32,894 nt of DNA from Bacilli bacterium (lineage in GTDB: Bacteria; Bacillota_I; Bacilli_A; RFN20; CAG-826). The stretch lies in the NCBI GenBank assembly GCA_024695105.1, contig JAILIV010000051.1, positions 1 through 32,894 of the forward strand, read 5' to 3'. The translations under genes and the position numbers were made by a program. The notes under the pieces are model-generated. The model had not been told where the DNA came from. It worked only from the letters and a program-made list of their open reading frames with translations, and made no database searches. Positions 1 to 10,120 of this stretch are shown piece by piece. Numbering within the stretch: position 1 is the stretch's first letter; every line of letters starts with the position of its first letter.

Positions 1-627
1 GACGTGGGGCAAGGGGATTGCGCTTTGATCCAAGACGGTCTTACCACGGTCATGATCGACACGGGTGGGATAAACGGCTTCGACATCGCCCAAGAATGCC
101 TGATTCCTTATCTAAGAAAGCGACGCATCTACCATATCGACGCGCTGATCGCGTCCCATCAGGATTACGACCACGTGGGCGGGGTTTCTTCGTTATGCGC
201 CCATTACGAGGTACGGAAGTACGTGACGGATGTCTCTTCGTTTCCGCTTCGGGTAGGGAATCTTACGTTTACTAACCACAACGACTATGGCTTCGAGGAG
301 GAGAACGAAAAGTCGTTGTTCCTTTCTTTGTCCTTTATGGGCAAGGTGTGGCTTTTCACCGGGGACGCCGGGGTGACGGTGGAGAAGAATGTCATCCGCG
401 ATTACCCTGATTTGGATTGCGATGTTCTGAAAGTGGGGCACCATGGCTCGGACACGTCGACGTCGGAAGCGTTTTTGGATGCGGTGAAACCCGAGGTGGC
501 GGTCATCTCTTGTGGCAAAAACAACAAGTTTGGCCATCCCAAAACTTCGGTTGTGCGTTCCCTGTCCAAGCGTGGCATAACGATTCGAAGGACGGACGAA
601 GAGGGGACGATCACGTTTTGGGAATAG
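1..627 (+). CDS. comEC: ComEC/Rec2 competence protein, C-terminal metallo-beta-lactamase domain (5' truncated)
   Basis: The reading frame is open from base 1 and starts inside the gene, so only the last 208 residues are present. They begin with DVGQGD, the entry motif of the ComEC metallo-beta-lactamase-like domain. ASHQDYDHVGG (about residues 49-59) is the metal-binding histidine/aspartate motif, and FTGDAG and KVGHHGS follow in the usual order. The C-terminus ending in GTITFWE is normal for this family. ComEC forms the inner-membrane channel for single-stranded DNA during transformation, and this domain is thought to act on the non-transported strand. The membrane part lies outside the window. 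In Bacillota comEC is commonly followed by holA and rpsT; here those genes come only after an 8.5-kb insertion of envelope genes. The fragment is intact and has no internal stop. Confidence 0.93.
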   Translation, partial: DVGQGDCALIQDGLTTVMIDTGGINGFDIAQECLIPYLRKRRIYHIDALIASHQDYDHVGGVSSLCAHYEVRKYVTDVSSFPLRVGNLTFTNHNDYGFEEENEKSLFLSLSFMGKVWLFTGDAGVTVEKNVIRDYPDLDCDVLKVGHHGSDTSTSEAFLDAVKPEVAVISCGKNNKFGHPKTSVVRSLSKRGITIRRTDEEGTITFWE

Positions 628-790: not shown

Positions 791-820
791 TTGACGGGAT
801 TTGGTTAAGCAATGGATAAT
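791..820 (+). promoter_or_regulatory. Sigma-A-type promoter of the giant prepilin gene
   Basis: TTGACG (791-796) and GATAAT (815-820) are separated by 18 bp. Transcription would start near 827, giving a leader of about 50 nt that includes the hairpin at 835-862. Confidence 0.55.
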
Positions 821-862: not shown

Positions 863-878
863 TTTAGGAGGCCACAAT

Positions 879-3800
879 ATGGCAAAAGGGAAAACGAGAC
901 GTGGCTTCACAATCGTGGAGCTAGTCATCGTCATCGGCGTGATCGGCATTCTCGCGGCCGTTTTGATCCCCACCTTCGTCAATCTCTCGCAGAAGGCGCA
1001 GGTCGCATCGGATCAGACGTTCGTGAAAAACGCCAATACCGCTTTGGCGATGGGCAAAAAGCACAACACCATGCACGAAGCCGTCGAGGAAGTGGAGAAC
1101 AACGCTTCCTTGGATATCGACGGGTTCACCCCCGCCAGCGGGCGGCATCTTGTCTGGGACTCCAAGGCAGACCGCTTCGCCCTGGTTGGTGATGCGGGCG
1201 TAAGCGACGTCATCTATGCGGATGGCGATGGGCTTACCGCCACGGAGAACTGGGAACTCTTCCATGTCTATAGCGAGCTTCCCGCCGTTCAGACCTTCTC
1301 CGTGTATGCCGGAAGCGATTGGTCCTTTGAAAACGTGGAAGTCGCTGGTTTGACGGTGGGTTTTGACTGTGGCGACAACGACATCCGCACGATCAGTTAC
1401 GACCGTTCGTTGGAAAGCACCGGGCGGAACGTTATCTTGGCGACGACCAACGCGCCTGACGTGGCCATCACCATCAACGCTCCCCATGACACCGTCACCC
1501 ATTTCGGCGAGGCCGATTCCGTGAACATCATCGCCGTCGCCCCCATGAGTTACCATGAGCACGGCCGCATCGAGAAGCCGATTCAGATCGCCAGCGGGCG
1601 CATCGTCCTTGAATCCAGTTCTGACGCTGAGGCGGAAGTAGGGGCGGGGGCCATGTGCGAAGTCGCGCCCGGTTCGGCCTCCACGGCCTCCTACGTTGGC
1701 GCCACCTCCATCGATGGCACCGTGAATAGCCTTTCCTACTCCGGGGCGATCATGAAGCGGCAAGCCCGCGTCGCCCACTTGGATAGCGTCGAGACCATTA
1801 AGACGAACACCAACCCCAACCGCAGCTCGTTCTACCATAACGGCTCCTTGGTCGAGGCGGAGCACGGCGTCGATTCCTACAAGGTCGGCTGCTATGGTGC
1901 GTTCAAATTCCCGATTTACGTCAACGCGACCGTGAGCTTCCAAGAGCGTTCCTACCGTAACCCCGCCGGTTTGACCTGGGCCGCCTCGGATGGCGTCAAC
2001 GATTACGACGCCGGCACCGGCGATAGCCCGATTAGTTATAACAACGCCTCTGGCGAAATGACCTTCACCACCGACGCCATCGGCAAAACCTTCACCTTCA
2101 CCGCCACCTATAGTGGCCGTCAGTCCACGCCGTTTACCTTTGATGTCATCGATGCCTATAACGCATATGACGCGAAGACCCTCTCCGCGTTCGACAACCG
2201 TTCTGTCGTCGATCCTGATTGGGATGACTGGACCATTGCCCGGCCTTATGTGCGCCATCAGGTTGGCAACGATGTCTCCTATGAATACGGTGAACCCGTT
2301 CCCGTCACAGGGCTTTATGTGAAGACGGCCGAGGTTCGCGAGAACAGCAACCGTGGTGGCATCGTCCTGCATGATGACATCGTCATCAAGAACTCGGACC
2401 TCCCGAGCACGTATTTCTATAGCGAAGCAGAGGTTGCCTCTTACTTCGACCGCAACCCGACCCACTTCCGTGAATGGCTTGCCATTGCGAACGAGTCGCG
2501 CCGTGCGAATGGTATTCCTGAGTTGAGTGAGCGCGAAGGAATGAAGGCGCTGATTGGTTCCATTAAAGACGATCGTGCCTTGTTCTACCGCAAGACCGCC
2601 CTTGGCGAGAACTTCGCGTTCGAAGGCAATTACTTCAATATCGACGCGTCCCATTTGAAACTAATCCGTTTCTTCGGCAATAGGCATAACGCGAACAACG
2701 CCTATGATCGCGACACCTTGACGGACGCGCACAACATTAAGGATACGTCCCACGCGACTTTGTTCGGGTGGAACGCGATTTCCTCTGGTGCGTATCAGGA
2801 ACGCGGCCTTGGTGGATTGAACACGGTCAAGAACGTCTCGCTTGTCCTAAACGGTCGCCGCACCAACGACGATTCCTATCGTGGGTCGTTATTCGCCTTC
2901 AAGGTTTCGACCACTGAGGTTCGCTTTAGCAATGTGAACGTCTCCAAGTGCTTCACCGCATTCTATTCTGACGTGGGCTATCCGCCTTCCTCTTTGGAAA
3001 CCGCGGGGTTAGAAGCGCCCTACACCACGATGAAGCTGGATCGTTGCAAAGCGTTCGATTCCTACAACAGCTTGTTCTACATCTACGGTTCGCAGGCAAA
3101 CTCCGTCACCAACTCCGTCGCCAAAGACGCCGGCGGCGCGGCGTTTATCCTGGACGAGCGTCGGAAAGACTTGAAGTATGACATCAAGTCTGGGAACGTC
3201 GACGATCTCAAACCTGGGCCGATTGAAATCGGTTATGGGGAAAACGACACGAACTATTGGCATGGCGATCCCGAGGTGGATTGCGCCAACGTGTTCTTCG
3301 AGAACTACGTCACCGGCACCGAGCCTTGGTTCGTCGATAACGGCGGCCCGATGGCGCAGACGCTGCTTGGCATCTTGAAAGGTTGCTCCAACGGTTTCCT
3401 TGCCGGCATCGACGAAAACCAAAAGAGTTTCACCCGCATTGAGGCGGATGGGAGCCAAAGCCTGAACCTTATCGCGTTTGACCTTTGCCCGGATTGGTTC
3501 ACCAACGCCACCGTCACGAACCCTGGCATCGCCGGCGCTGGTCACTTCTGCGTCTATGACACCGTGGCTGAAATGGAGGGCGGAGCCGTCTCGGATCGCA
3601 CCGCCAACCTCCATATGAGGGCTTTCTCCAACCCGACGCTGACTCCCGATGAAATCCGCGAGTACGTCTATAGCGCCGGTATCTTCAGTCAAAACTTGGC
3701 CGTCGCCTTCCTCAGTGGGAATGGCGGACATGGCCTCCCGACCAATTTGGCGGGCACCGAAGGCATGGCCTTGAACATCCGCGATACCGTTTTCGGGGGC

Positions 3801-4208
3801 GCTTCTGCGGAAGGCCTGGCGGCGATCCGCGCCGGCGTCATCAGCCAGATCGTCACCGCTGGTCTTGCCTCGGATGCCGAAGCTGGTGCCGCCGTCTTGG
3901 ACGATATCATCGCGAAGGATGGCATCATTCCTCTTCCTGAAGGCCGCGATGAAACGGCGCAGGAGACCCAGCTCCGCTTAGCGTACGCTCAAATCTATGC
4001 CGCGTATGTCGACACGATTAATTCCGCCGCGGAGGGCGCTATGCCCGGCATGTCCGCCTTATGGCAAAATGTCGCGACGCCTCGCACCGCCTTGCGGAGA
4101 CTCGTTACCGCCGATTACGTTTCCAGCTACATCAACTTTGGGAAAGGGCCGCGCGCGAACGAAGCTTACGATCGTCTCACCCTTGGCATCCTTCTTGGCA
4201 TGCGATAA
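879..4208 (+). CDS. Giant surface protein with type IV prepilin (class III) signal
   Basis: This 1109-residue protein begins with a textbook prepilin leader: a short basic segment (MAKGKTRRG), cleavage expected after Gly9, Phe at +1, Glu at +5 (FTIVE) and a hydrophobic stretch to about residue 36. The first 60 residues resemble major pilins and competence pseudopilins. The remaining 1000 residues are far longer than a normal pilin (about 100-200). I recognise no catalytic domain; a segment near residues 390-430 (FTFTATYSGRQSTPFTFDV) reads like a bacterial Ig-like repeat, and residues about 640-760 have short beta-rich, Asn/Gly-containing stretches that could form a beta-helix. There is no LPXTG or C-terminal membrane anchor. 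The start is fixed by AGGAGG at 866-871. A strong terminator follows the stop. It could be a tip adhesin or pseudopilin-tethered surface protein; the N-terminal call is firm and the function is inferred. Confidence 0.88.
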   Translation: MAKGKTRRGFTIVELVIVIGVIGILAAVLIPTFVNLSQKAQVASDQTFVKNANTALAMGKKHNTMHEAVEEVENNASLDIDGFTPASGRHLVWDSKADRFALVGDAGVSDVIYADGDGLTATENWELFHVYSELPAVQTFSVYAGSDWSFENVEVAGLTVGFDCGDNDIRTISYDRSLESTGRNVILATTNAPDVAITINAPHDTVTHFGEADSVNIIAVAPMSYHEHGRIEKPIQIASGRIVLESSSDAEAEVGAGAMCEVAPGSASTASYVGATSIDGTVNSLSYSGAIMKRQARVAHLDSVETIKTNTNPNRSSFYHNGSLVEAEHGVDSYKVGCYGAFKFPIYVNATVSFQERSYRNPAGLTWAASDGVNDYDAGTGDSPISYNNASGEMTFTTDAIGKTFTFTATYSGRQSTPFTFDVIDAYNAYDAKTLSAFDNRSVVDPDWDDWTIARPYVRHQVGNDVSYEYGEPVPVTGLYVKTAEVRENSNRGGIVLHDDIVIKNSDLPSTYFYSEAEVASYFDRNPTHFREWLAIANESRRANGIPELSEREGMKALIGSIKDDRALFYRKTALGENFAFEGNYFNIDASHLKLIRFFGNRHNANNAYDRDTLTDAHNIKDTSHATLFGWNAISSGAYQERGLGGLNTVKNVSLVLNGRRTNDDSYRGSLFAFKVSTTEVRFSNVNVSKCFTAFYSDVGYPPSSLETAGLEAPYTTMKLDRCKAFDSYNSLFYIYGSQANSVTNSVAKDAGGAAFILDERRKDLKYDIKSGNVDDLKPGPIEIGYGENDTNYWHGDPEVDCANVFFENYVTGTEPWFVDNGGPMAQTLLGILKGCSNGFLAGIDENQKSFTRIEADGSQSLNLIAFDLCPDWFTNATVTNPGIAGAGHFCVYDTVAEMEGGAVSDRTANLHMRAFSNPTLTPDEIREYVYSAGIFSQNLAVAFLSGNGGHGLPTNLAGTEGMALNIRDTVFGGASAEGLAAIRAGVISQIVTAGLASDAEAGAAVLDDIIAKDGIIPLPEGRDETAQETQLRLAYAQIYAAYVDTINSAAEGAMPGMSALWQNVATPRTALRRLVTADYVSSYINFGKGPRANEAYDRLTLGILLGMR

Positions 4209-4225: not shown

Positions 4226-4262
4226 AAACGGCCGTCTGAGATTCATCTCGGACGGCCTTTTC
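4226..4262 (+). terminator. Rho-independent terminator after the giant prepilin gene
   Basis: GGCCGTC (4230-4236) pairs with GACGGCC (4251-4257), and the stem continues through a T-G pair and GAGA/TCTC to a TTCA loop: 12 bp in all. A-rich bases precede it and TTTTC follows it. Confidence 0.88.
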
Positions 4263-4428: not shown

Positions 4429-5019
4429 TTATTCCTGATATCCCGCGACGATGAGGCGCACGTTGCACGTCATGCCCGAATTGTCCGTCGCGGATATCGT
4501 CAAAAGGAAGGAGGTATAGTCTGCGGTAAGCTTCGTGTCGAAGTGGACGATGCCTTGTTCGTTTACGCTGGTTCCGATGGCTTTGTTCCCTTCCGCGTCG
4601 AAAAGGCTATACGTCAATTCTTGCTTCGTCGCGTTTTCAGGGAGTGCAAACGCGGATAGGTCGAGATTGCCTTGGCCGTCTTTCCATTTGGGATCATCAT
4701 AGATGGGGTTGAAGGATCGGACTTGCAAGACGTAGTCGAAGCGGATGCCACCTATGCTCCAAGTGACGTATTCGGCGCCTTCGGGTGGCGGGGTGGTGCC
4801 ATCGGGCCTGGAATACAAAGCGGTGATGGAAGAGGAAAGCGGTTGGTTCTCGGGATAGGTCAATAATCCGCCTTGGGGGAGATTACGCGCGCAAGTGAGG
4901 ATAATCTGGGTGACTTCCACGGTTTGGTTACGCACCTCGGACACCACGCCCAAGACGGAGATGAGTACCACGGCGAACAAATACACCGCGGCCACGAGCA
5001 GGGCGGTGATCTTTTTCAT
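4429..5019 (-). CDS. Membrane-anchored exported protein with Ig-like fold, unknown function
   Basis: This 196-residue protein starts with a short basic tip (MKK) and a strongly hydrophobic segment (about residues 5-28), with no lipobox, so it is probably an N-terminal membrane anchor or a signal peptide. The rest is polar and beta-rich. Residues about 130-195 (LTYSLFDAEGNKAIGTSVNEQGIVHF and following) resemble bacterial Ig-like repeats, and a TTPPPEG turn lies in the middle. No enzyme motif is seen. Its start overlaps the stop of the upstream permease gene by 4 bp (ATGA type), so it is the last gene of the three-gene minus-strand operon. An extracytoplasmic partner or substrate of the ABC system is a reasonable inference. 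I do not recognise the family. Confidence 0.8.
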   Translation of the reverse strand: MKKITALLVAAVYLFAVVLISVLGVVSEVRNQTVEVTQIILTCARNLPQGGLLTYPENQPLSSSITALYSRPDGTTPPPEGAEYVTWSIGGIRFDYVLQVRSFNPIYDDPKWKDGQGNLDLSAFALPENATKQELTYSLFDAEGNKAIGTSVNEQGIVHFDTKLTADYTSFLLTISATDNSGMTCNVRLIVAGYQE

Positions 5020-6734
5020 TTCGATCCCCTCCCTTCAAAGGGCAAAGCCCCGTAGGCGCGAACCTTTTGGATGAACAAGAACACCCGGGCGACGAAGAAT
5101 AGCGCAGTGGCCACCAAAAGATGGTAGATGCCCGTTAACGCGGATTCGTTAAGGAAAAGGAACAATAATCCCGCAAAGGCAAAAGAGAGGAGGAAGGCCA
5201 GAGCGGAGGATTTGACTTCGTTGGGATTGAAGCCGATGTGGCGTGAGCTTTGCGCGTAGACGTGGTGACGGGGGTTTATGTAGTCAAGCTCCGCAGACCA
5301 CAAAAAATGGCCGAAGAATAGGAAGAAGACGCACCAGAAGAAGACGTCGAGCCGCATGAAGGCGAAGGTGGAGTAGTTGGCGTACACCACGACGGTGACG
5401 ATGATGGAGATAAGCATCAATACTCCCCGCATCAGCAATTTGGCGAGGATGCTTCTGCGCAAGGAGACGGGGTCGGAGAATAGGGTCGTGGCGTTATGGG
5501 CTTCCTTGGAGAAGACGGAGGCCATGGAAACGTTGGTGGCCAATAGGATCAACGCGATGATCAGCGCGTTGACCACGATCGTGTACATTTGTCCCGCATA
5601 GGTTTTCTTCATCGCCTGGAAGATGACGTTGAGGAACAAGATGGCCAAGGGGGCGCCCATGACGAGAAGGTAGGCGCTGGCCAAGGTTTCGGAGGTGCGG
5701 AGGCTATTCAACAGGTCTTTTCTTAGGACGGAGAGGAAGGAAGGCAAAGGTTTGGAAGAAGATGCCTTCGTTGCCTTTTTGCTATATTCGCTGGGCTTGC
5801 TGGCCATTTGGAAGAAGAACTTCCGAAGGAAGAAATAGCCCAGCAACACGAAGACGGCGAGGATGCCTAGCAGGCTTAAGGCGATCCATAAGGAGGCAAT
5901 GGAGACGGGGTTAAAGGAGGGGTAGTCGAGCGCATGGGCGGGGTCATATCCGGTCAACAGGCGGGAAAGGAACGTCAGAGGCGTCAGGGCCTTTTCGATG
6001 TTTTGGGCGAAGTCGAGAAGACCGGGGTAATACACGTTGGCCCATTTGGCCACCAGGGAAAGGTCTTCGGGCATCAAGGAGACGAGGAAGAAGAGAAACC
6101 AGGTTCCTAACCCTAGCAAGCCAAGCAATATCCCGGTTTTCACGTAGGGGTGTTTCCGTAGGAACGAGGAAACGTAGTAATAGGGGATGGACAAGATTCC
6201 GGCAAGGGCGGTGCTTAACGTGACGAAGATCACCCAGCATAGGATCAACCAGAAATAGTAATAGGCCGGGGCGAGGTAGACGATGCCTATGGCGATGAAA
6301 AGCGGAAGCATCGAAAAGGCGCTGCGGAGCAAATCACGGAGCAAAATGACCAAGATCTTCGAGAAGAAGACGTATTGGGAGGGGACGGGGAAGGAAAGCA
6401 AAACGGGATTATCCGGGGAGAAGTACATCGCGTTGCTGATGCGGGGGAGGGAAGAGAGGAAATGAATTAGCAACACCGCGTAAAAGAATAGGTTCCATAA
6501 AAGCAGGGGTATCTTCCCGCCGAGGCCGAATATGCCGATGTAGCCAAGCAGATAGAACATGAGGAAGAATAGACCCGTCAACGCGCCGATGCCCAAAACG
6601 TAGAGCAAGACGCGCGTCAAAACGTCTTTCAGGTTTCCTTTTATCGGGAAAACGAGGGTTTCCTTCCATTGCATGGACACCAAGGTCCAGAAGGCTTTGA
6701 CGTCGTTCTTTTTCCTCTCCTGCGCGTTAGGCAC
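5016..6734 (-). CDS. Polytopic membrane protein, probable ABC-2-like permease
   Basis: A 572-residue protein with about a dozen hydrophobic segments, starting with an N-terminal cytoplasmic stretch (MPNAQERKKNDVKAFWTLVSMQWKETLVFP) as in large bacterial ABC-2-type permeases. A polar loop around residues 310-330 (SKPSEYSKKATKASSSKPLPSF) precedes a second group of membrane segments, giving a two-lobed permease layout. A region naming dumped components (VFSKEAHNATTLFSDPVSLRRSILAKLL) lies near residue 410. Its first 8 bp overlap the end of the ATPase-bearing gene upstream, and its last 4 bp overlap the exported-protein gene, so the three are translationally coupled. It most likely forms the transmembrane pore driven by the ATPase domain of its neighbour. 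The transported substrate cannot be told from the sequence. Confidence 0.82.
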   Translation of the reverse strand: MPNAQERKKNDVKAFWTLVSMQWKETLVFPIKGNLKDVLTRVLLYVLGIGALTGLFFLMFYLLGYIGIFGLGGKIPLLLWNLFFYAVLLIHFLSSLPRISNAMYFSPDNPVLLSFPVPSQYVFFSKILVILLRDLLRSAFSMLPLFIAIGIVYLAPAYYYFWLILCWVIFVTLSTALAGILSIPYYYVSSFLRKHPYVKTGILLGLLGLGTWFLFFLVSLMPEDLSLVAKWANVYYPGLLDFAQNIEKALTPLTFLSRLLTGYDPAHALDYPSFNPVSIASLWIALSLLGILAVFVLLGYFFLRKFFFQMASKPSEYSKKATKASSSKPLPSFLSVLRKDLLNSLRTSETLASAYLLVMGAPLAILFLNVIFQAMKKTYAGQMYTIVVNALIIALILLATNVSMASVFSKEAHNATTLFSDPVSLRRSILAKLLMRGVLMLISIIVTVVVYANYSTFAFMRLDVFFWCVFFLFFGHFLWSAELDYINPRHHVYAQSSRHIGFNPNEVKSSALAFLLSFAFAGLLFLFLNESALTGIYHLLVATALFFVARVFLFIQKVRAYGALPFEGRGSK

Positions 6735-9048
6735 CTTTGCCTCCTTTGATGATGGACATATAGAAGGCCTCCAAGCCTTCGGGGTGTTGCCTTTCGACTT
6801 CTTCCATCGAGCCTTCGAAGACGATCTTCCCTTCCAAGATGATGGCGATGCGCGTGCACAAACGCTCCACCACGTCGATGATGTGGGAGGAGAAGAACAC
6901 GACGTTGCCTTTCTTCGCGTGGGCGATCATGGCTTGTTTGACTTGGAAGACGGACTGGGGGTCTAGTCCGGTCAACGGTTCGTCCAATATCCAAACCTTC
7001 GGGTCATGGACAAGCGCTGCCATGATGGCGATTTTCTGTTTCATGCCATGGCTATACGTTTCCATACGGGCGTCGAAGGCTTCGGTGAGTTCGAAGGCTT
7101 CCAAGTAGTGGTTAATGCGTTCGGCGCGGTCTTCCTTGCTTACCCCATAGAGATCTGCGACATAGCCGATGTATTCCCTTCCGGCAAGCTTTTCGTATAA
7201 GGCATAGTGGTCGGGGACATAACCGAGGAGTCTTTTGGCTTGGACGGGTTCGTGGGTGATGTCAAATCCACATACATCGATGGATCCTTCGGTCAAAGGC
7301 TGGATGCCGATGGCGGATTTGATGCAGGTGGATTTGCCCGCGCCATTAGGCCCAAGGAAGCCGAAGATCTCCCCGCCGCTCACGCAAAGGCTTAAATGGT
7401 CGACGGAGAGTTTTGGGGAGGAGCCATACCGTTTGCTGAAGGAAGAAAAGTTCAATCGGATGGGTGTTTCTTCCGATGGGGTCAATGTTTTCATAAGGCG
7501 GGCCTCCTTGAATGATAGAGCGTTTTGCTTTCGTGTTTTTAGGCGCATGCGCAAGTCGACGTGGGCGTCTTCCACCGCGTAGAAGAAGGTGTAGACGTAC
7601 CACATCAAAAAGGCGATGCCGACGTAGCCGACGAAGAAGAGACTTTGGTATAGCGGGTAATAGACAAGCACCAAATCACCTGAGTTGAACTGCACCCTCA
7701 CGTTGAGCATTTTCTTCGCCTCTTCGCCGAAGATACCTAGGATGTAATCGTTGTTGATGAATAGGTAATCGGTGCCGCTTCCAAGTTCCCCAGGCCGATA
7801 ACCCGGGACGAAGTTGGACAGGTAACCATTCGCGAACATGATGGCGACGAAATACACCGCAAAGGCCGCGAGGGAATAACCCATTTGCTTCATTTTGGGG
7901 CGGTCGAATACCTTTAGGGCCACCGCTAAAAGCGGCATGCATAAGGCGTTCATGTGGTTCCACCAGAATAAGAGGACGCTGGGGTCGAACATGTTCGTGT
8001 ATTCGCCGTTATTGGGCCACACCATGGCGGCGAAGGCGCCGAAGACGTTGATGAAATAGGTGAAGTAGAAGACCTTTTTCCCATTGAAGGCGATGGATAA
8101 GGGCACGACGAATAACGCGGTATGGCAGAGGTGGATGGGGAGGCGCGTGGGCATGACTTTGTAACCATTCGCCACGTCGAAGATCCCCTCAAAACCGTAT
8201 TCGGTGAAGAAAGAGGAGATGGCGCCAATGGAAAGGAGGAGCAAAACGGTCTTTTTCCCGTTGAGGTCGTCGCTTCGGGACAAGAAGTAAGCCAAGACGA
8301 AGAAGGCGATGCCGATATAGATGTAGAGGCGTTGGACGAAGGAGAACTCAAACACGCGCCAGGAGCTTTGGATCCTCCCGAACAGGATGGAATCGGTGGG
8401 CACGAAGGTGGCGAAGGTGCCCATGGGCAAAAAGGCGAAGACGGCAAGGAGGAAATAGGCGAAGACAAACGCCCAATCGCTGTTTTTCTGCAAACGTTCC
8501 TTACGGTCTAGGATAAGCGCGACCAAGCCTGAGGAAAGGCACGCCCCAAGGGCGATGGCGACAAGCGTTTCTTTGTAGGAGATGGACAGGTTGGTGCCTA
8601 CGTAGGCATGGGCGAGGTTCCATAAGAAGGGAACGCAAAGGATAAGCAGTGGGGTGGCGATGTAACGATTCGCGTAAGCGACGCGGCGCGAGGGGAAGAT
8701 GGCGGAGAGAATGGAGAATCCCGCCGCGGGGAGGAAAAGGGCGACGTTAAGCCAGGCAAAGACGTTTCCGACGCGGTTATCCCCATAGGGGACGCCAAGG
8801 AGGTTCACGCATCCGATGTCGGTGTTGTATTGCGGCGTGCGGTAGATGGCCTTGGTCGTCATGGCGATGGGCACGAAAAAGGCCATGCAGAGCAAGCAAA
8901 CCAAAGCGACGCATCCTAAAACCAGCCGAAAGACTTTTAACGTCTTTTCCTTTCCTTTCCTCAAGGCGATGGAAAGTCCGACGAAAGGTCCAAAAAGCAG
9001 AAGGAATGTCCCTACAAACGTCAGGTAAAGGAATGCCTCTACAGCCAT
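6727..9048 (-). CDS. YwaF/TMEM164-like membrane protein fused to an ABC transporter ATPase
   Basis: From ATG at 9048 this is a 773-residue protein. About residues 1-510 are membrane segments; the stretch with LPIHLCHTALFVVPLSIAF and WWNHMNALCMPLLAVAL resembles the YwaF (TIGR02206)/TMEM164 integral membrane family. From about residue 535 a complete ABC-2-type ATPase follows: Walker A GPNGAGKST, signature YSHGMKQK, Walker B WILDEP and a switch His in FFSSHI. The frame is open farther upstream to 9213, but a -10 box at 9063-9058 lies just before ATG 9048, and upstream residues are hydrophilic and overlap the divergent holA gene, so 9048 is chosen. An internal ATG at 7494 preceded by AAGGAGG could produce the ATPase alone. 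First gene of the operon. A recent loss of a stop codon or a sequencing indel could have joined two genes; no frame break is visible. Confidence 0.82.
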   Translation of the reverse strand: MAVEAFLYLTFVGTFLLLFGPFVGLSIALRKGKEKTLKVFRLVLGCVALVCLLCMAFFVPIAMTTKAIYRTPQYNTDIGCVNLLGVPYGDNRVGNVFAWLNVALFLPAAGFSILSAIFPSRRVAYANRYIATPLLILCVPFLWNLAHAYVGTNLSISYKETLVAIALGACLSSGLVALILDRKERLQKNSDWAFVFAYFLLAVFAFLPMGTFATFVPTDSILFGRIQSSWRVFEFSFVQRLYIYIGIAFFVLAYFLSRSDDLNGKKTVLLLLSIGAISSFFTEYGFEGIFDVANGYKVMPTRLPIHLCHTALFVVPLSIAFNGKKVFYFTYFINVFGAFAAMVWPNNGEYTNMFDPSVLLFWWNHMNALCMPLLAVALKVFDRPKMKQMGYSLAAFAVYFVAIMFANGYLSNFVPGYRPGELGSGTDYLFINNDYILGIFGEEAKKMLNVRVQFNSGDLVLVYYPLYQSLFFVGYVGIAFLMWYVYTFFYAVEDAHVDLRMRLKTRKQNALSFKEARLMKTLTPSEETPIRLNFSSFSKRYGSSPKLSVDHLSLCVSGGEIFGFLGPNGAGKSTCIKSAIGIQPLTEGSIDVCGFDITHEPVQAKRLLGYVPDHYALYEKLAGREYIGYVADLYGVSKEDRAERINHYLEAFELTEAFDARMETYSHGMKQKIAIMAALVHDPKVWILDEPLTGLDPQSVFQVKQAMIAHAKKGNVVFFSSHIIDVVERLCTRIAIILEGKIVFEGSMEEVERQHPEGLEAFYMSIIKGGKGA
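7494..7509 (-). promoter_or_regulatory. Internal Shine-Dalgarno and in-frame start inside the ABC fusion gene
   Basis: On the minus strand AAGGAGG (7509-7503) stands 8 nt before an in-frame ATG at 7494 encoding MKTLTPSEE, directly at the border between the membrane part and the ATPase domain. This is a good initiation site for a free-standing ATPase of about 255 residues. Confidence 0.6.
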
Positions 9049-9057
9049 GTACCCATT

Positions 9058-9063
9058 ATTATA
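9058..9063 (-). promoter_or_regulatory. -10 box of the minus-strand ABC operon (probable leaderless start)
   Basis: A perfect TATAAT on the minus strand (9063 to 9058) ends 9 nt before ATG 9048, with no Shine-Dalgarno between them. No good -35 hexamer is apparent. Confidence 0.55.
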
Positions 9064-9131
9064 CTCGCCCGCGCGAAGCAACGGCAAAACGCCACGAGGA
9101 AAATACTCACGCATGTTCGCTCTTACGCCCG

Positions 9132-9137
9132 TATAAT
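9132..9137 (+). promoter_or_regulatory. -10 box of holA (probable leaderless start)
   Basis: A perfect TATAAT ends 8 nt before the holA ATG at 9146. There is no room for a Shine-Dalgarno, and no clear -35 hexamer. It lies back to back with the -10 box of the ABC operon. Confidence 0.55.
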
Positions 9138-9145
9138 TGTCTTCG

Positions 9146-10120
9146 ATGATCCTTGTCTTGTATTCCACCGATCCCCAGATGGCCCGCCACGTGGCCATGA
9201 AGCAGATCCGCAAGGACTTCCCGAAGCGGGACGAGTTTAACTACATCAGCCTAAACATGGAGCTTACCCCGCTAGACGAACTGGCGCAGGAATGTTCCTT
9301 CCTTCCGCTTGGATGCGACCGGAAGTGCGTTTTGGCATTCGGATGCTCCTTTTTGGCTAAGACGAAGACCAAACTGGATGAAAAAGAATCCCGACGGCTT
9401 CTGGAATACCTCAAGAACCCAGATGCTTTCATTGACCTGTATATGCTTGTTGAGGCGGATGCGGTGGACGAGAAGAACCCACTCGTCAAAGCCATCATGA
9501 ACACGGGCCAAATCAAAGGTATCCCACTTCCCAAACCCGAGGAATGGATGGAATACGCGAAGCAGTACTTCGCCGCGAAGGGATGCGGCATCGAGGAAAG
9601 CGCCTGCAGGGAGCTTATCCTGCGCGTGGATAACGATTACGGCCGTTTCCAGAACGACCTTGGGAAGTTATCCTCTTACGCCAACGGGGAAACCATTACC
9701 TTGAATGCCGTGAAGATGCTGATCGCCCCCAAAATCGAGGAAGACACGTTTGCCATGAGCAACGCCCTTACCCGAGGCGACGTGGCTAAGGCCATGGCCA
9801 TTTACAAAGACCTGAAGGCCCATTCCGTCGATGAAATCCGTTTGATTAACACGCTTGCCTCGCAGTTCCTTTTCATGGATGAGGTCCGCTACTTGGACCT
9901 AAGGGGAAATTCTTCCGATGAAATCGCGCGGGAACTCGCCACTAGCCGCAAACGCGTGGAAGTGACGCTAAGCAACCTTTACCGCATCCATCAAGAGGCC
10001 ATTCCCCGCATTTTGGAAGAACTCTACGAATGCGAGAAATCCATTCTCACCGGAAACGTGGAACCCGCCTTTGCGTTTACGCGGTTCCTCGCCAATTACA
10101 CGATCAAAAAAAGCGATTGA
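9146..10120 (+). CDS. holA: DNA polymerase III subunit delta
   Basis: A 324-residue protein with the layout of HolA: an N-terminal nucleotide-binding-like fold beginning MILVLYSTDP, conserved DFPKRDEFNYISLNME, the hydrophobic FLPLGCDRKCVLAFG segment, and the C-terminal helical collar region (ALTRGDVAKAMAIYKDLKAHSVDEIRLINTLASQFLFMDEVRYL). Delta opens the beta sliding clamp within the clamp loader. Identification is supported by position: comEC-holA-rpsT is a standard Bacillota order, with rpsT immediately downstream and convergent. A TTG at 9137 is in frame but lies within the -10 box, so ATG 9146 is chosen; this leaves almost no 5' leader. The P-loop is not intact, as is normal for delta subunits. 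Confidence 0.9.
   Translation: MILVLYSTDPQMARHVAMKQIRKDFPKRDEFNYISLNMELTPLDELAQECSFLPLGCDRKCVLAFGCSFLAKTKTKLDEKESRRLLEYLKNPDAFIDLYMLVEADAVDEKNPLVKAIMNTGQIKGIPLPKPEEWMEYAKQYFAAKGCGIEESACRELILRVDNDYGRFQNDLGKLSSYANGETITLNAVKMLIAPKIEEDTFAMSNALTRGDVAKAMAIYKDLKAHSVDEIRLINTLASQFLFMDEVRYLDLRGNSSDEIARELATSRKRVEVTLSNLYRIHQEAIPRILEELYECEKSILTGNVEPAFAFTRFLANYTIKKSD

Follow-up and report, generated by a model that had tools for sequence, protein, structure and literature searches.

A giant modular prepilin in a Bacilli genome, probably derived by exchange of a lipoprotein anchor for a type IV pilin leader

Introduction

How a protein of 1109 residues comes to carry the N-terminal signal of a type IV pilin, and what such a protein might do, are the questions raised by ORF 879-4208 of the window, by which we mean the whole 32,894-nucleotide stretch analysed here. 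The source genome is a MAG (1.48 Mb, 85% complete), and the comparison set comprises 279 genomes of one order. The original prediction saw a canonical prepilin leader on a giant exported protein and suggested that the protein could sit as a tip adhesin on a type IV pilus (T4P) or competence pseudopilus, the assembly system also used by the neighbouring comEC, or at the membrane through an uncut leader. Hundreds of modular pilins have been recognised, and the step by which a module is grafted onto a pilin is seldom visible.

Results

The first 30 residues of the protein read MAKGKTRRG followed, after the predicted cut, by FTIVELVIVIGVIGILAAVLIPTF, and constitute a class III leader with Gly-1, Phe+1 and Glu+5 (Table 1). 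PF07963 matches this leader with 28.5 bits (E 2.5e-6) in a genome-wide search and with 22.8 bits in the Pfam profile comparison (cut-off 21.2), and TIGR02532 matches it with 20.8 bits (cut-off 16.3). The likeness to the GspG, PilA and ComGC models extends beyond the leader, to about residue 65, and a profile of the N-terminal module matches solved type IV pilins in the alpha-1 region with a best E of 1.6e-14. Prepilin leaders are scarce in the order, occurring in 17 of the 279 genomes at E<=0.01 and in 14 above the cut-off, and these 14 consist of the 12 genomes with PilD and two more. Given this rarity and the concentration in PilD genomes, the leader is not a chance motif.

Table 1. Features of the giant prepilin gene and its conserved neighbours in the window.
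Feature	Position	Strand	Basis
Sigma-70-like promoter match, weak	791..820	+	Consensus only; number of matches equals chance expectation
Ribosome-binding site AGGAGG	866..871	+	Sequence; seven bases upstream of ATG
Giant modular prepilin gene, 1109 aa	879..4208	+	ORF, ATG start, PF07963/TIGR02532 matches
Prepilin leader (MAKGKTRRG); PilD predicted to cut behind Gly	879..905	+	PF07963/TIGR02532
Pilin alpha-1 helix, residues 10-59	906..1055	+	Profile matches; helix 12-59 in low-confidence model
Pilin module, residues 1-~254	879..1640	+	Common to paralogues with differing C-termini
Passenger, residues ~255-1109	1641..4205	+	Homology with ABC-locus lipoproteins
Modelled right-handed parallel beta-helix, residues 490-871	2346..3491	+	pLDDT 62.5, pTM 0.67; Beta_helix matches in family
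Strong terminator-like hairpin after prepilin gene	4230..4257	+	12-pair stem, T-rich tail; consensus match only
Small single-TM protein of conserved ABC locus	4429..5019	-	Conserved neighbourhood
ABC permease, conserved locus	5016..6734	-	Weak PF16949 match, below cut-off
TMEM164 domain fused to ABC ATPase, conserved passenger partner	6727..9213	-	Domain matches and neighbourhood

Residues 1 to about 250 are common to many proteins with differing remainders, as seen in tblastn searches and alignments, and the junction between this pilin module and the passenger falls near residue 255. The head (residues ~60-254) is conserved among paralogues, with a fold prediction of low confidence. The module recurs in a paralogue on contig C45 of the source genome, in G002 (two proteins) and G001 (several), in G044, which has a tandem array of four besides others, and in two proteins of the G113 T4P operon. 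The four PF07963 matches of the source genome are ORF 879-4208, the 552-aa C45 paralogue and two small pilins of contig C4. Across the 279 genomes there are 32 prepilin frames of at least 400 codons, distributed over all 12 T4P genomes and G232, a 69% complete genome in which a prepilin of the giant family is present and PilD was not found. At least 800 codons are reached by 16 frames, and ORF 879-4208 is the longest N_methyl frame of the entire set. Giant prepilins are the rule in the T4P-bearing members of the order. The canonical leader (RRG/FTIVE) and the exceptional size put forward by the original prediction are both borne out, and the search for further giant prepilins that it proposed has yielded them in all 12 T4P genomes of the order and one other.

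Several variants accompany this family. The G044 array (L058:2632-13052) consists of four giant prepilins of about 675-870 codons, the second of them without a clear in-frame start. A large protein of G001 (L055:518-2503) combines a plain TM helix with a pilin-module head, without a prepilin leader, and adjoins a prepilin gene, and a 1096-aa protein of G057 (L170:7671-10958) likewise has a plain TM helix, adjoins PilD and appears pilin-headed by eye. Lipobox-bearing members of the pilin-module family are found in G204, G206, G207 and G047, none of which has PilD; at L172:4667-8676, L173:4901-8741, L174:4064-7950 and L175:4055-6232 the lipobox-bearing proteins correspond to the module family minus its first ~37 residues, in genomes without PilD. 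Contig ends at L051, L052, L062, L063, L054 and L056 fall inside a giant-prepilin leader or module, and the 5' ends of the G002 paralogues are 87-97% identical in DNA. Assemblies break because such near-identical 5' cassettes are joined to different passengers, and recombination among the cassettes might occur.

Contig C4 of the source genome (9.2 kb) encodes PilB (T2SSE, 445 bits), a PilC/GspF platform protein, PilD (Peptidase_A24, 57 bits) and two minor pilins, together with two further genes at the PilX and PilM positions to which profiles gave no confirmation; Pfam, NCBIfam and PDB searches lent no support to the gene at the PilM position, which is therefore left unnamed. The original prediction had hinged on the presence of a prepilin peptidase and an assembly ATPase, and it stands on this point, since homologues of PilD, PilB and PilC provide the source genome with both and with a platform protein. 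No PilT-like ATPase was found in this 85% complete MAG. The major pilin gene is absent from the assembly, and C4 breaks directly after the TM gene that precedes the major pilin in relatives. Where relatives have the operon (G002, G113 and, in part, G001 and G027), the TM gene is followed, in the operon or on the contig, by the major pilin and then by giant prepilins. The intact operon of G113 ends in the major pilin followed by giant prepilins of 504 and 870 aa, and the order of major pilin and giant prepilin is the same in G002, G001 and G027. The 12 genomes with PilD, out of 279, are also exactly those with the platform protein. Separately, contig C56 of the source genome (G000:C56, L006) encodes a TadA-like ATPase and TadB/TadC-like membrane proteins, a second pilus system of the Tad type.

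The passenger (residues ~255-1109) belongs to a second family, distinct from the pilin module. It has no Pfam domain of its own, and within its family Beta_helix (PF13229) matches three members and Big_2 matches twelve. A full-length model built on five sequences was too poor for use (pLDDT 39.5). The model of a crop covering residues 490-871, built on six sequences, adopts a right-handed beta-helix (scores in Table 1), and its alignment with VIA-align returned almost solely beta-helix proteins, including PfbA (4mr0, Z 11.8), tailspikes and lyases, which amounts to support at the level of the fold; a Foldseek search of the same cropped model gave nothing significant (best E 0.19). The passenger thus comprises an Ig-like part and, going by this moderate model, a right-handed beta-helix. 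Since the repeat fold is a common one, the model can point to a glycan-binding or adhesive role at fold level only.

In nearly all the loci examined, the passenger gene has a TMEM164-ABC ATPase fusion and a permease as neighbours, and usually a small single-TM protein can be recognised there as well; all three partners are also present in the window. Fusion and passenger occur together in 54 of the 279 genomes, the fusion alone in 6, the passenger alone in 11 and neither in 208 (Fisher p 1.6e-39). Of the six genomes with the fusion alone, a weaker passenger match adjoins the fusion in four; in the other two the neighbour is a large, diverged ORF that begins with a lipobox-like sequence. Several of the eleven passenger-only genomes match the BIG-like stalk region only. 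We infer from this a partnership of the passenger with the ABC transporter. Searching wider contigs with a four-row passenger alignment returned five loci, three of them from genomes already in the set, and marks the relatives as rumen Bacilli/Erysipelotrichaceae MAGs. TMEM164-ABC loci with a very large surface protein are found in about 60 of the 279 genomes and in one Clostridia MAG (L069); instances are window positions 4429-9213, L048, L049, L053 and L101-L139. No published description or name was found for this locus of fusion, permease, small protein and surface protein. LhaT of B. subtilis, which is related to the TMEM164 domain, is a lipoprotein acetyltransferase (PMC12345273). A link between the TMEM164 domain and lipoprotein acylation was considered and is kept as a lead, the ABC fusion persisting where its partner is a prepilin.

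The anchors of the passenger family fall into two types. Among 52 passenger ORFs, 47 have a lipobox, nearly all of them in genomes without T4P genes, 3 have a prepilin leader and 2 are truncated fragments. The prepilin-type passengers (3 of 50 complete members) are those of the window, G027 and G057, and PilD is present in all three genomes. Since the 855 C-terminal residues belong to what is elsewhere a family of lipoproteins, the pilin leader is best read as a replaced anchor. That the junction of pilin module and passenger might instead be an artefact of assembly or annotation is a concern with a MAG, the more so as the contigs of several relatives stop inside the leader, but it is scarcely conceivable here, given that an independent MAG, G027, encodes in a single open frame an orthologue of 1031 aa with both halves, the same architecture and junction, the same convergent neighbours and about 42% identity.

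In a quick tree of 50 passengers, the window and G027 proteins pair (SH-aLRT 99) and are nested in lipoproteins of the same genus, and the G057 protein lies among distant lipoproteins. An AU test, in which the group was defined by the trait, rejects a single clade of the three prepilin passengers (p-AU 8e-9), so that at least two anchor changes are required. The pilin module of G057 is a different one: over 40 residues its leader shares 75% identity with another prepilin of the same genome, and its likeness to the window protein is confined to the leader. In G057 the passenger and ABC genes overlap and keep the gene order of lipoprotein relatives, which suggests that the leader was replaced in place. 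In the window and G027, the orientation of the passenger gene is also reversed relative to the lipoprotein loci.

Within the 65 profile-positive genomes, prepilin-type passengers are found in 3 of 4 genomes with PilD and in 0 of 61 others (Fisher p 9e-5, an optimistic value since kinship is uncorrected), or in 3 of 5 PilD genomes if the diverged G002 lipoprotein is counted; what can be said robustly is that both of the independent exchanges lie in PilD genomes. The T4P-bearing G044 and G002 retain a lipoprotein at the locus, which indicates that PilD permits the switch and does not force it. These observations suggest that lipid and pilin anchors are exchangeable when a genome has pilus machinery. 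No description of a lipoprotein-to-prepilin exchange was found in the open-access literature, the coverage of which was incomplete.

The C-terminal part of ComEC is encoded upstream of the prepilin gene (window positions 1-627), an arrangement that might mark the protein as a competence pseudopilin or DNA-uptake factor working with its neighbour. Such a role is highly improbable, since ComEC is present in 35 of 61 relatives, most of them without T4P genes, neither the pilins nor the ATPase of C4 reach the cut-offs of the ComG equivalogs, and the passenger belongs to the ABC locus. Against the competence equivalogs, the giant prepilin itself attains 25.2 of 49 bits for ComGE and 23.7 of 75 bits for ComGC, with none of ComGC, ComGE, ComGF and ComGD above its cut-off. 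The G027 orthologue is not beside comEC and the conserved neighbour is the ABC locus on the other side, so the adjacency to comEC is incidental and the link drawn by the original prediction has to be given up. The comEC gene is split by the contig edge, and its membrane part is probably G000:C40:24787-25500.

Discussion

ORF 879-4208 probably encodes a modular minor type IV pilin that arose through a lipoprotein-to-prepilin anchor exchange and that would display a glycan-binding or adhesin-like module on the T4P, with its incorporation into the pilus and its ligand inferred. Of the roles first envisaged, that of a pilus-borne surface protein is the likeliest because sister genes with the same module follow the major pilin in the T4P operon, and the connection with competence falls away. 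A leader serving purely as a membrane anchor, cut or uncut, on a protein that never enters a pilus would accord with the membrane-tethered ancestral form and with the very large size of 1109 aa for a filament subunit. Relatives of the pilin module with a lipobox or a plain TM helix (as in G001 C65) point the same way, for they make it seem that membrane tethering alone is enough for such proteins. The conservation of Gly-1, Phe+1 and Glu+5 and the restriction of prepilin-type passengers to the few PilD genomes nevertheless go beyond the needs of a mere hydrophobic anchor, and together with the operon position of the sister genes they make this alternative unlikely.

For the modular pilin, the following course of events can be proposed. 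The sequences show the leader and module of a resident family of giant prepilins joined to an extracellular passenger that is a lipoprotein in nearly all relatives. This change of anchor took place once before the window species and G027 diverged and once independently on the line to G057. PilD would cut off the nine-residue leader, and the PilB/PilC machine of C4 would insert the subunit, by analogy with PilB and PilC of S. sanguinis; its bulk makes the pilus tip, or a place close to it, the likeliest site. The Ig-like and beta-helix passenger may then bind a surface glycan or other ligand away from the cell, where the ancestral lipoprotein would have bound the same kind of ligand at the membrane. 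A wider reading, which we offer tentatively and with somewhat less than even confidence, is that lipobox and prepilin leader are exchangeable across the order, lineages with PilD being able to turn lipoproteins into pilus-borne proteins and genomes without it having pilin-headed proteins as lipoproteins (G204, G206, G207 and G047), and that the TMEM164-ABC transporter serves the surface protein either way.

The grafting step becomes testable because the lipoprotein form of the passenger, with its neighbours unchanged, is seen within the same genus and because the exchange took place at least twice, each time in a genome with PilD. A sparse set of Bacilli from gut and rumen is also marked out as rich in giant pilins, and the finding points to an undescribed locus of transporter plus surface protein.

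Several known systems offer points of comparison. Among the closest are the BIG_2-stalked lipoproteins of the TMEM164-ABC locus, which have a homologous passenger and the same three neighbour genes; theirs, however, is attached through a lipobox and usually a Ser-rich and/or BIG_2 stalk, in place of the 254-residue pilin module of ORF 879-4208. The moderate model of residues 490-871 aligns at fold level with PfbA and other right-handed beta-helix adhesins and with pectate-lyase-like proteins, and no function follows from this likeness since the repeat fold is common. The PilY1/PilC tip adhesins are also large extracellular proteins shown by type IV pili, but PilY1 is not a pilin, whereas ORF 879-4208 has a prepilin leader, and no Pfam or NCBIfam profile match to the PilY1 beta-propeller was obtained at E<=1, a result that holds at the level of profile comparison.

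Pilins with grafted adhesin modules are established, as in S. sanguinis, where PilB carries a vWA and PilC a lectin module, both bulky and placed at the tip, and the most extreme multi-domain case in a survey of modular pilins is a protein of 860 residues (PMC8179133; PMC9934059). The protein described here resembles those of S. sanguinis in its class III leader, small pilin module and bulky module that is not pilus-specific, in a monoderm with T4P machinery. It differs from them in being larger (1109 aa), in lying in an ABC transporter locus outside the pilus operon and in having a passenger without a Pfam domain, the lipoprotein ancestry of which can be traced. Modular pilins themselves are an established kind, and the exchange of anchors would be the new element.
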